64,000 nt of DNA from Lentibacter sp. (GTDB lineage Bacteria > Pseudomonadota > Alphaproteobacteria > Rhodobacterales > Rhodobacteraceae), in contig JADGEJ010000004.1 in assembly GCA_016744435.1 (NCBI GenBank), positions 52,638 to 116,637 of the forward strand. The letters are read 5' to 3'. This document shows positions 36,646 to 43,783 of the stretch, one piece after another. Both the position numbers and the translations under genes were made by a program. A model generated the notes under the pieces. That model did no database searches and was not told the origin of the DNA. It worked only from the letters and a program-made list of their open reading frames with translations. The first letter of the stretch is position 1; every line of letters begins with the position of its first letter.

Positions 36646-38625
36646 ATGAGTACTGAAACTAAACTCGACACACTCAAGTTGTGTCTGTTGTCGGACTGGA
36701 AAGTGGAGCGGGGTTCAATTCGAGTTAATCTCCGCGGCCAAAAGCGTCAGGCACTTTTTACACGTTTGGCATTAAATGAAGGTCGACCGATCCATCGGAA
36801 CGATCTGGCAGAATGGTTTTGGCCTTCAGTTGAACCTAACAAAGCCCGTGCTTCTCTCCGACAAGCTTTGACTGATCTGCGTGCAGTCATCGGCGCGCAT
36901 TGTATTGTGTCTGACGGTCTGTCGATTTCGATTAGCTCCACCCTTGTGGACTGCGATGTCGTCGAACTTGCCCTTCAACTTCGCACTGCACTATCGGGTT
37001 CACAGGCACAAACAGCCGAGCTAAGGGGCGTTAAAGAGTTATTGCGAGACTTTTACGGAATTGGCGAAGCACTTGATGATTGGTTGACAGAGACCCGAGT
37101 ACGTCTGCAGGACATGATTTTCGACGCTGCCGGAAAGCGTTTGCAAGACCCAGCTACGCCATCTGAACATCGGTTAAGTTTGGCGCGAGTTGTGTGTGAA
37201 CTCGATGCATTGAACGAATTCGCAATCCGAGCCCAGATGAAGGCCCTCGCCGATCTGAATGACAACGCTGCAGCCCTACGCGTTTATCACGCATTCTATG
37301 AGCATATCGAAGAAGAGCTGGCAGTAGAGCCATCCATAAAAACGCAAGAGCTTGCTGTTGAAATCAAAATGCAATCCCCGCCTGAGCAGTTGGCTCTTGT
37401 CTCGGCGAGCCCGGCTGAGGGGTCGGCTCGCCCTTTAACTTTGGTAGCCGTCATGCCCTTTGAAAGGCTTGGTTGTTTTCAAATTCCTGATCACACTATT
37501 TTGGGTATGCTCGATCAAATCACCTGCAAAATGGCTGGCTTTCGGTCTCCAGCAGTCATCTCTTCAAACAGCACACGACAATTTCTAGGTCAAACAATTA
37601 GCCCAGTCGAGATCGCGCAAAAACTTGATGTGCGCTATGTTCTTGTCGGTTCGATAACTGGGGGTGACGCGGAACCTGTCTTGTCGGTTCAGCTTTGTGA
37701 TGGTGTTAACGGGCGGGTTCACTGGGCAAAAACCCTCAAACTCAATTTGCCAGGCGCACTCAACCAGAGCCTCTCTCTTGCCGAAGATATCGCGCGCGCC
37801 GTGGAGCCATCACTCAACCTAGCCGAGCTTGACCGAGCGCGCATAATTTCACCTGAAGCTCTTGAGCCTCATCACTTGGTTCTTCAAGCCAAGGAGCTTA
37901 TGTTTCAGTTATCACCTGCAGAGTTTGCAGAGGCCCGCAACCTGATTGATCAAGCGCTTTCGATGGGCGCAAGTTTTGCCCCAGCTTTTGCCCTGTCTGC
38001 GGAATGGTACGCCATTAACTTGTGGCAGGGCTGGTCGCAGCGAAGCCATGTGGAAAGCACAACACTTGCAGAACATGCCCGACGTGCGATGCAGTATTCA
38101 CCAGGTGATGGACGCACGATGGCGCAATGGGGGCACTACAAAATATCGCTTGAACGCGACTTCGGCTCAGCTTTGGCTCTTTTGGAAGAAGCCCAACGGC
38201 TTGCGCCATCAGACTCCGAAACTCTGATCTGGACGGTTCCAACTTTGGCACATAGCGGTCAGGCAGGTCGAGCTGTAAAGAACGGAACCGAGGCACAGCG
38301 GCTTTCTCCTTTCGACCCATTTCAATTTCGCAACGAGCACTTTCTGTCACTTGCGCACTATGCTAATCACGACCACGAAAAGGCCGCGAAGTTGGGGCTC
38401 GCTTGTTTCTCAAAAGCGCCGCGCTATGGCTCGAACTTGCGAGTGACAATTGCTGCGCTTAATGCGGGCGGGCGTTTTCGCGAAGCTGTTGAGCTTGCAG
38501 AGCACCATGCGCGCGCTGAGCCGCAATACTCCTTGATCAATGTGCGCAACAAAATGGGCTTTCGCGATAGGCAGACCCAAGACATCTACGTCAAACGGCT
38601 CCTTGCTGCCGGAATTGCCGCATAG
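36646..38625 (+). CDS. SARP/BTAD-like transcriptional regulator with TolB-like and TPR-like regions
   Basis: N-terminal winged-helix/BTAD pattern (GRPIHRNDLAEWFWPSVEPNKARASLRQALTDLRAVIG; MKALADLNDNAAALRVYHAFYEHIEEELAVEPS) followed by VAVMPFERLG... and C-terminal repeats. Confidence 0.8.
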   Translation: MSTETKLDTLKLCLLSDWKVERGSIRVNLRGQKRQALFTRLALNEGRPIHRNDLAEWFWPSVEPNKARASLRQALTDLRAVIGAHCIVSDGLSISISSTLVDCDVVELALQLRTALSGSQAQTAELRGVKELLRDFYGIGEALDDWLTETRVRLQDMIFDAAGKRLQDPATPSEHRLSLARVVCELDALNEFAIRAQMKALADLNDNAAALRVYHAFYEHIEEELAVEPSIKTQELAVEIKMQSPPEQLALVSASPAEGSARPLTLVAVMPFERLGCFQIPDHTILGMLDQITCKMAGFRSPAVISSNSTRQFLGQTISPVEIAQKLDVRYVLVGSITGGDAEPVLSVQLCDGVNGRVHWAKTLKLNLPGALNQSLSLAEDIARAVEPSLNLAELDRARIISPEALEPHHLVLQAKELMFQLSPAEFAEARNLIDQALSMGASFAPAFALSAEWYAINLWQGWSQRSHVESTTLAEHARRAMQYSPGDGRTMAQWGHYKISLERDFGSALALLEEAQRLAPSDSETLIWTVPTLAHSGQAGRAVKNGTEAQRLSPFDPFQFRNEHFLSLAHYANHDHEKAAKLGLACFSKAPRYGSNLRVTIAALNAGGRFREAVELAEHHARAEPQYSLINVRNKMGFRDRQTQDIYVKRLLAAGIAA

Positions 38626-38723
38626 AGCAAGCTCTTGCTGGCTGTAGATTTAGTAGAATTGACGCCTATTTGACGCCCTTATGTTTCAACAGTTTAGAAG
38701 CGCAAAACAAGGGAAGCTAAATC

Positions 38724-42133: not shown

Positions 42134-42202
42134 GGGGTATTCCTTTCTTAGGGGGTGGGCGCGCTGAAATCCAAGGGAGGGTGGGTCCAGCGCGCCAGGT
42201 GG

Positions 42203-43783
42203 TTAGGCGTTGCGAGTGTCTTGCAACGCGTCCACAACTGGGAATCGCAGATCAGTCCACGCAAGCATATCTGCAATTGTTGCAATCGGGGCCGATGCGC
42301 TTAACGTGGCTTGCGCTTTATCAGGTTGCCAGTGAGCATTGGGCGACAGGATCGACGTGCGCGAGGTTAAGACCAAAGTGAAGAAAGTATCGGCCACAAT
42401 GGTTGAGCCCAAAGGCCCCAAACGTGCACCGTCGTTAGCGACGGCTGCCTCGATCAGGATGTAAAGCCAAAGAGGTGTGCGCTCATAGAGTTGCAAAGCC
42501 TCCATTGTCTCTTGGAAACTCTCATCGAGAACGCTTTGCATTTGTTTCTTTGTAAGCATGCGCACCGAAGGCAACAACCGTGACACATCTTGCCCTGAAG
42601 GCAGGGCTCGCATCGCGCCGCGGCGCAGGTTGAGCATTGCAAGGTTATTCATTTTGAGCGGCATTTTTGGCAGCATGCCCAAGACAGGCGCAATGTAAGG
42701 ATCAAGAGCCTTGGTCATGTTCAAAGCACCCTCAGCAGAGCCCGTTAGGTTGGGGAAGTTGCGGCCCGATAAATCGTAAAGCCGCCGGAAATCTGCAACC
42801 CAGTTGGTCGGCAAGGTCGGCAGCCCTGCCAAATCACCGCTGTGCTCTGTGAACCGGAAGAGCTGGTCAAAGTTGGCTGGGCTAGGGACTACAGCGCCGC
42901 CAGTGCTAAAGTTCGCATTCCACTCGTAGCTTTCACGAACTTGACTATGGCCCAGCCGGAAGCCCGCTACCGAAAACTCAAGCGGCATTAAGGCCTGTTC
43001 GCCCGGCCCCTGGGGCAGTGCCTTGCGGTTCCCACCAACGATGATGTCCTGATACACCTCGGCATCTAGAATGCGCGGCAGATAGTCATGCAGCACAATG
43101 TGCTGATAGTGACGGGTGACAAGATCACGCGCGATTTCAACAATGGTTGATGGCGCGGTGCCGGGGTTGGCTTCGGCCAGCGTTTCGGCGACCGCATTGT
43201 GAAAGTGCAGAAACATCAGGTGAGTTTGGGCAACGGCTAAGTTTTCGTCGTTGCGCGGATCTCCGATGGTGGCTACTTTAGATTGCCGTGGTAGATCGGC
43301 CAAGATCGGCTTTCCAGATGCGGCAGCCCCCGGTGACGGGCTTGTCGCGCCAATGGTGAAACGAAACCCACTCATCAAACGGCCGTCCGCCCCCGAAAGC
43401 GAACCATATAGACTATCGAGATCTAGGCTTGGTGAACGCTCTTGCGACAGAGCACCGTCGTGGGTTGGCTCAATCGCGTCGGTGCCAGAGATATCGCCTT
43501 CTTTGGCGATCGGTGTGACATCCATGGTGATGTCATGATCAATGAATTGGCCCAAATAGGTGTAACCTGCGGGCACTTCTGTGTCGCGGCGCTCAGCTTC
43601 CGAGCGCGAGGTCATGTGGTTTCCAAGTCGGTCGCAGGTCGATTGCTTCAGCAACATTGGTGGGGCTTCGTTCGGGCTAAACATGCGCCCAAACATGAAC
43701 CCAGTCGACTTGTCTGTCGCTGGGCCTTCCCCTTGGATTTCGATATTTTCTTTGATTCCATGTTGTGGTTTTGATGTGTCCAT
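42203..43783 (-). CDS. animal-type heme peroxidase, bacterial subfamily
   Basis: YLGQFIDHDITMDVTPI (distal His block), FLHFHNAVAE, HYQHIVLHDYLPRIL, EFSVAGFRLGHSQVRESYEWN. Confidence 0.9.
   Translation of the reverse strand: MDTSKPQHGIKENIEIQGEGPATDKSTGFMFGRMFSPNEAPPMLLKQSTCDRLGNHMTSRSEAERRDTEVPAGYTYLGQFIDHDITMDVTPIAKEGDISGTDAIEPTHDGALSQERSPSLDLDSLYGSLSGADGRLMSGFRFTIGATSPSPGAAASGKPILADLPRQSKVATIGDPRNDENLAVAQTHLMFLHFHNAVAETLAEANPGTAPSTIVEIARDLVTRHYQHIVLHDYLPRILDAEVYQDIIVGGNRKALPQGPGEQALMPLEFSVAGFRLGHSQVRESYEWNANFSTGGAVVPSPANFDQLFRFTEHSGDLAGLPTLPTNWVADFRRLYDLSGRNFPNLTGSAEGALNMTKALDPYIAPVLGMLPKMPLKMNNLAMLNLRRGAMRALPSGQDVSRLLPSVRMLTKKQMQSVLDESFQETMEALQLYERTPLWLYILIEAAVANDGARLGPLGSTIVADTFFTLVLTSRTSILSPNAHWQPDKAQATLSASAPIATIADMLAWTDLRFPVVDALQDTRNA

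Follow-up and report, generated by a model that had tools for sequence, protein, structure and literature searches.

What could bring a regulator, a PAP2-superfamily protein, two peptidases, a lipoprotein and a heme peroxidase together in one compact stretch of a Lentibacter genome, and do they act as one system? The original prediction read the close packing of the six genes as a sign of joint function. In the part of this claim that has stood, the regulator, PAP2 protein and peptidase form a cassette to which a peroxidase is recurrently linked, while the trypsin-like peptidase and the lipoprotein have turned out to be orphans.

The locus and the island around it

The window, by which we mean the whole 64,000-nucleotide stretch that was analysed, belongs to a genome of 3.25 Mb (G000); the relatives returned by our searches are mostly from Rhodobacterales, and open reading frames were called mechanically throughout. 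On the forward strand lie a regulator of 659 residues (36646..38625), which combines a SARP-type wHTH, a BTAD domain, a TolB-like domain and a C-terminal TPR solenoid; a soluble PAP2-superfamily protein of 290 residues (38724..39596), assigned by a Pfam match (PAP2, 1.7e-9) and an AF2 model; and a papain-like (C1) peptidase of 349 residues (39598..40647), the third gene of the cassette. The PAP2 protein carries an N-terminal tandem array of five SHGN units and one further residue (38742..38804, +), read from the sequence and predicted by the model to be disordered. On the reverse strand are two orphan accessories, a trypsin-like serine peptidase of 310 residues (40644..41576) and a small lipoprotein of 186 residues with a lipobox-like MSGC start (41573..42133), followed by an animal-type heme peroxidase of 526 residues (42203..43783), an accessory of a recurrent type. 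All six reading frames lie where they had been predicted, and the family calls are borne out by Pfam matches and catalytic motifs. A reading of the sequence also upholds the tight junctions: the PAP2 stop codon at 39594-39596 is followed by the C1 peptidase ATG at 39598, an ATGA overlap joins the lipoprotein and trypsin genes, and a 4-nt CTAG overlap lies at the tail-to-tail junction.

The catalytic motifs deserve some detail. The C1 match (1.6e-3) scores 19.0, just under the curated Pfam cutoff of 20.7, and the Cys/His/Asn motifs RATCTAF, GGHAVC and RNSLG are intact, with the triad conserved in relatives. In the trypsin-like protein (Trypsin_2, 9.4e-8) the His/Asp/Ser motifs TNAHV, HDVALI and GHSGSA are intact, and searches of 246 genomes from Rhodobacterales and 120 from across the phylum found no homologue outside its own genome. 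The lipoprotein matches no Pfam family above cutoff, and neither it nor the trypsin has a homologue among the related loci that were fetched. The heme peroxidase (An_peroxidase, 3.1e-22) keeps its distal His, Arg and proximal His (GQFIDHD, GDPRNDE and FRLGHSQ), catalytic residues common to bacterial animal-type heme peroxidases, and is without an evident signal peptide. Secreted oxidative killing, one of the roles first proposed for the locus, was rejected, as a simple hydropathy check gives a signal-like start to the lipoprotein alone among the window proteins.

The cassette sits in a tRNA-Phe/integrase island with CBASS and Fic defence genes. An integrase comes after tRNA-Phe at 29770, and between there and tRNA-Leu at 48223 are a SoFic-type Fic protein, resolvases, a radical SAM protein, a CBASS 2TM effector and fragments of a caspase and a cyclase. 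An attL/attR repeat of the tRNA-Phe end was sought, and no exact match of at least 14 bases was found. The Fic protein (31208-32257, -) has a SoFic-type PADLOC match of 3.9e-48. A resolvase (35379-36223, +) followed by a small HTH protein, together with a resolvase fragment (44791-45123, +), is further mobile DNA around the cassette. The radical SAM protein (45178-46053, +) has a spore-photoproduct-lyase-like match (SPL, 1.4e-6). Two reading frames at 46393-47357 (-), in which a Peptidase_C14 caspase and the extreme start of an oligonucleotide cyclase can be recognised, are apparently degraded CBASS/caspase remains. The 2TM effector (47380-48372, +) matches PADLOC at 6.5e-84 over residues 1-205, with Pfam Cap15 below cutoff, and its reading frame may be truncated because its end overlaps tRNA-Leu. 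The setting resembles CBASS and other defence islands, but the cassette itself has no cyclase or other PADLOC component, and none of the six window proteins matches a PADLOC 2.0 defence profile at E up to 1.

The three-gene cassette and its recruited neighbours

The joint function first proposed turned on whether these genes keep company elsewhere, and our searches show that the TPR regulator, PAP2 protein and peptidase form a conserved cassette, of which the window locus is one copy of a widespread type. Relatives of the C1 peptidase occur in 5 of 246 Rhodobacterales genomes, the window's own included, each in the order regulator-PAP2-C1, and a contig scan with a C1 alignment gave 56 loci, most carrying all three genes. 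The order SARP-PAP2-C1 recurs identically and beyond chance, with the regulator directly upstream and C1 directly downstream of PAP2. A phylum-wide search with a PAP2 profile added loci in which the third gene is an S8 (subtilase) or an A4-family (glutamic) peptidase, so that the peptidase class varies among cassettes, C1 being the third. The collection grew to 137 PAP2 relatives, from loci of alphaproteobacteria, betaproteobacteria and other proteobacteria, as a rule with both cassette neighbours. With the S8-type profile a PAP2 family member was found in 84 of the 246 sampled Rhodobacterales genomes, about a third. From these members 80 loci were fetched for neighbourhood analysis; within 3.5 kb, an S8 match is present in 75 of them and a regulator match in 77, with 41 of these regulators on the opposite strand. 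Two copies can be named, on Phaeobacter inhibens plasmid pP66_c (PhaeoP66_RS20965, RS23215 and RS20955) and in Rhizobium leguminosarum WSM1325 (RLEG_RS24905, RS24900 and RS24895), where the annotation reads merely wHTH or SARP regulator, phosphatase PAP2 family protein and S8 peptidase. A search of open-access papers found no description of the cassette. A phage origin was considered and rejected, PAP2 relatives being absent from viral contigs with the patterns used.

The haloperoxidase-like identity first suggested for the PAP2 protein is not supported. The active-site motifs Kx6RP, PSNH and Rx5HxxxD are intact in the window protein, and all three are present in 135 of 140 scanned family members. 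In the AF2 model (pLDDT 85.8, with residues 1-37 below 50, the array being disordered) the nearest fold is that of a soluble acid phosphatase: the top 26 Foldseek matches are class A acid phosphatases, and the best vanadium-dependent haloperoxidase (VHPO) is 4usz, with an E-value of 9.5e-4 and a target TM of 0.26. We therefore rejected the assignment as a vanadium-dependent haloperoxidase, and with it the idea of two oxidant-producing enzymes at this locus. The predicted fold and the motif series Kx6RP...PSxH...Rx5HxxxD are common to class A non-specific acid phosphatases, but the cassette protein differs from these in its N-terminal array, in having no evident signal peptide and, in the window and most C1-type members, in reading PSNH rather than PSGH.

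The gene neighbourhoods show that accessory enzymes have been recruited near the cassette, heme peroxidases and vanadium bromoperoxidases most often. A strong heme peroxidase match lies near the cassette in 9 of the 80 Rhodobacterales loci, the window not counted (L171-L176, L185, L232 and L241), and six of these nine loci are in both genome-wide lists (G059, G079, G144, G152, G169 and G204). These genes lie within about 4 kb of the cassette, far above chance by an arithmetic estimate, as 45 peroxidase places per roughly 1 Gb would put about 0.05 in the 1.1 Mb examined; weak matches (E about 3e-9) in L190-L192 were left out of the count. In L054 and L057 the heme peroxidase directly follows C1. 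The vanadium bromoperoxidase type is found in 8 of the 80 loci, again without the window, as the bromoperoxidase itself in L212, L217 and L226 and as a shorter relative (4.4e-19) in L208, L220, L221, L225 and L227; elsewhere, L072 has a full-length vanadium bromoperoxidase (PDB 5lpc, 3.4e-104). The linked heme peroxidases are not one clade, and the closest relative of the window's own is an unlinked gene on a Microvirga plasmid. The peroxidase is thus a recurrent, convergent partner gained repeatedly, and differs from known heme peroxidases and vanadium bromoperoxidases in its recruitment beside one cassette several times independently.

These counts bear on two other readings of the locus. 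In one, the linked genes are limited to the regulator, PAP2 protein and peptidase, and the peroxidase side came along as unrelated cargo of the island. This would fit the orphan trypsin and a peroxidase on the opposite strand with its closest relative unlinked, but the 9 heme peroxidase loci against the expected fraction of one, and the 8 bromoperoxidase loci besides, make it very unlikely. The other is a metabolic or tailoring cassette in which PAP2, protease and (halo)peroxidase would process a metabolite or peptide product, as the adjoining vanadium bromoperoxidases, and the HEXXH peptide-modification and ThiF genes beside NK-type cassettes, might suggest. However, the accessory enzymes are not constant among relatives, most loci lack them, and units made of Gly and Ala only offer no halogenatable residue, so we consider this reading very improbable.

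Several other neighbours were seen. The HEXXH putative peptide-modification and ThiF-type genes follow S8 in L130 (8361-10750) and L043 (3844-6070); these cassettes, from Rhizobium and one further genome, carry NK arrays. A protein of 1263 residues in L172 (14508-18299) unites Trypsin_2, Endonuclease_NS and Subtilase, with related reading frames in 5 loci, and one of 1234 residues in L234 (10257-13961) joins an esterase to CHAT and is found in 4 loci. In the Sulfitobacter/Roseobacter cassettes L061, L063 and L088 a DUF900 hydrolase and a DUF6880 protein directly follow C1.

The tandem array and its possible readers

The SHGN array, mentioned in passing in the original prediction, is one case of a family-wide feature, the most unusual of the cassette. 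In 133 of the 137 PAP2 proteins the chain opens with units of 2-5 residues in perfect tandem repetition, and two of the four exceptions (L174 and L248) may be gene-start errors. Across the arrays there are 77 different units in 3-19 copies (median 8). The period is 4 in all 39 C1-type arrays; among 92 S8-type arrays it is 3 in 76, 2 in 8, 4 in 7 and 5 in 1; and it is 3 in 2 A4-type arrays. The array is confined to the PAP2 protein. Neighbouring reading frames, regulators and peptidases among them, lack it: of 752 others in the first 75 loci, each 200 aa or longer, 2 pass the array filter and one of these is a run of X, which leaves a background of 1 in 752. This separates the cassette from amyloid signalling pairs of the BASS/HET-s type, in which receptor and effector share the same motif.

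The identity of the units is kept at the amino-acid level, as becomes clear when neighbouring units are compared: they differ at 809 of 1019 synonymous sites (pS 0.79, near saturation) and at 100 of 3082 non-synonymous sites (pN 0.03), the latter mostly in degenerate end units. The low pN is partly by construction, since the arrays were picked for perfect repetition, but the high pS is not. In the window array itself, with 5.2 perfect SHGN copies, neighbouring units show 12 differences, all of them synonymous. Neighbouring units share even fewer codons than expected (515, against 566 +/- 13 when permuted, reached in 0 of 500 permutations), as if repetition in the DNA were avoided. Recent DNA slippage as the origin of the arrays was rejected on the near saturation of synonymous sites; copy number still varies by whole units within species, and the array of L091 looks freshly expanded.

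The units turn over fast. The fewest changes needed on the PAP2 tree are 82 for the unit, 8 for the period and 2 for the peptidase class. Repeat period and peptidase clade are associated, which we count for the explanation preferred below, but with only 2 class changes on the tree this association is confounded with phylogeny, and that counts against it. The clearest case of turnover comes from five Roseomonas-type haplotypes (L091, L089, L095, L086 and L078), most of them from metagenome-assembled genomes and one (L091) with a split regulator reading frame. Their PAP2 cores are 87-97% identical and their arrays read DGGN, DGGM, DGGS, DGGG and GDGS. Array and regulator C-terminus have been replaced together: a stretch that takes in at least the final 300 bases of the regulator and the gap before PAP2 has about 40-70% nucleotide identity, against about 90-97% ahead of it; the array stands at 52-77%, and the 150 bases that follow are back at 90-99%. 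Pairs sharing one unit have no such dip in well-matched cases. We count this co-replacement in favour of the preferred explanation. It could also be hitchhiking, since the two segments adjoin and a single clade is concerned, and conservative unit changes (GGF to GGL, NGGM to NGGV) occur without regulator change; both points count against it. Among loci with divergent regulators, pairs with differing units were too few for a test of co-variation. The peptidase was rejected as the reader of the exact unit, being 91-94% identical across the DGGN, DGGM and DGGS loci.

The regulator in the window has a BTAD match of 5.5e-10 with Trans_reg_C below cutoff, and no Pfam match to an NB-ARC ATPase domain; the model of its homologue in L095 (pLDDT 88.6) has wHTH, TolB-like and TPR parts, matching CadC, TolB and CTPR in the PDB. 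As in SARP/AfsR proteins, C1-type cassette regulators place wHTH and BTAD at the N-terminus and TPR at the C-terminus, but they differ in the TolB-like middle domain of the modelled homologue and in the NB-ARC domain that was not found, and some cassette regulators carry a CadC-like wHTH instead. In the Roseomonas type the groove-lining TPR A-helices are conserved (0.75-0.95), whereas the outer B-helices and C-cap are variable (0.37-0.69 in the last four repeats). This fits poorly with a simple model in which the groove reads the unit; we count it against the explanation preferred below and rejected the groove as unit reader.

The same pattern weighs on an RRNPP-like peptide signalling system, in which the peptidase would free identical array peptides to be sensed by the cassette's own TPR regulator, giving strain-specific pherotypes. 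Such a system would explain why a protease shares a cassette with a TPR regulator and with identical units in many copies, and why near-identical loci with differing units also differ in the regulator C-terminus. Like the RRNPP receptors (Rap, Rgg, NprR, PlcR, PrgX), the cassette sets an HTH and TPR regulator beside a possible peptide-source gene, with apparent ligand/receptor co-variation in one clade. It differs in its candidate ligand, a tandem array at the head of a PAP2 enzyme, in its dedicated peptidase, in its proteobacterial hosts, and in wHTH and TolB-like domains in place of the Xre-type HTH; peptide binding is putative. Against signalling, the A-helices are conserved although they are the expected lining of a binding groove, there is little information in units like GGA, NK and SR, no exporter gene was recognised, and the Phaeobacter and Rhizobium plasmid copies that were read keep one unit and vary in copy number alone. 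On balance we regard signalling as unlikely.

Alternatively, the array could be a private tag for self-assembly, through which the PAP2 enzymes of one strain would cluster as their arrays stack on each other, the letters being free as both sides are the same protein. This would account for free letters, internal identity and concerted change without a co-evolving partner, and periods of 2-5 could give regular faces. Yet many arrays are like-charged (NK, NR, SR, AGR, GKM, DGGS) and should repel one another, the array is disordered in the model, and the co-replaced regulator C-terminus is left unexplained, which makes self-assembly quite unlikely in our view.

A possible role for the cassette

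A conflict or defence role for the locus is plausible. Our preferred reading, which we hold only tentatively, is that the cassette is an intracellular, tightly regulated conflict device with the array as its docking or processing site, a mechanism that we infer. Through its disordered array the PAP2 enzyme would be docked onto the regulator of its own cassette, or onto some other partner encoded there, and so be held in check. Upon a trigger, the co-encoded peptidase would trim the array, freeing the PAP2 enzyme and changing transcription, and the peroxidase may contribute oxidative damage; the conflict could be phage defence or self-limitation. The letters of the array would be free so long as a change takes in every unit, and the rapid turnover may reflect pressure for a private, non-cross-reacting specificity. 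For this device we count the gene order conserved in C1-, S8- and A4-type loci, the near-universal array, its unit identity kept in the amino acids while neighbouring units share few codons, the peroxidase linkage far above chance and the island with CBASS and Fic around the window copy; against it we count that no window cassette protein matches PADLOC.

A further reading, which we consider possible but rather doubtful, is a self-specific repeat-tag system. The array would be selected for identity and not for its letters, turn over fast from strain to strain, and be inherited with the regulator C-terminus as a private key per strain for a phosphatase/protease/peroxidase device.

Should the cassette prove to be a device for conflict or kin recognition, it would be a common one, its PAP2 family being carried by 84 of 246 sampled Rhodobacterales genomes, yet missing from the defence catalogue that we searched; Phaeobacter and Rhizobium, both well studied, are among its hosts. 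More generally, the array family raises the question of which selection demands that the units be identical and yet leaves their letters free.
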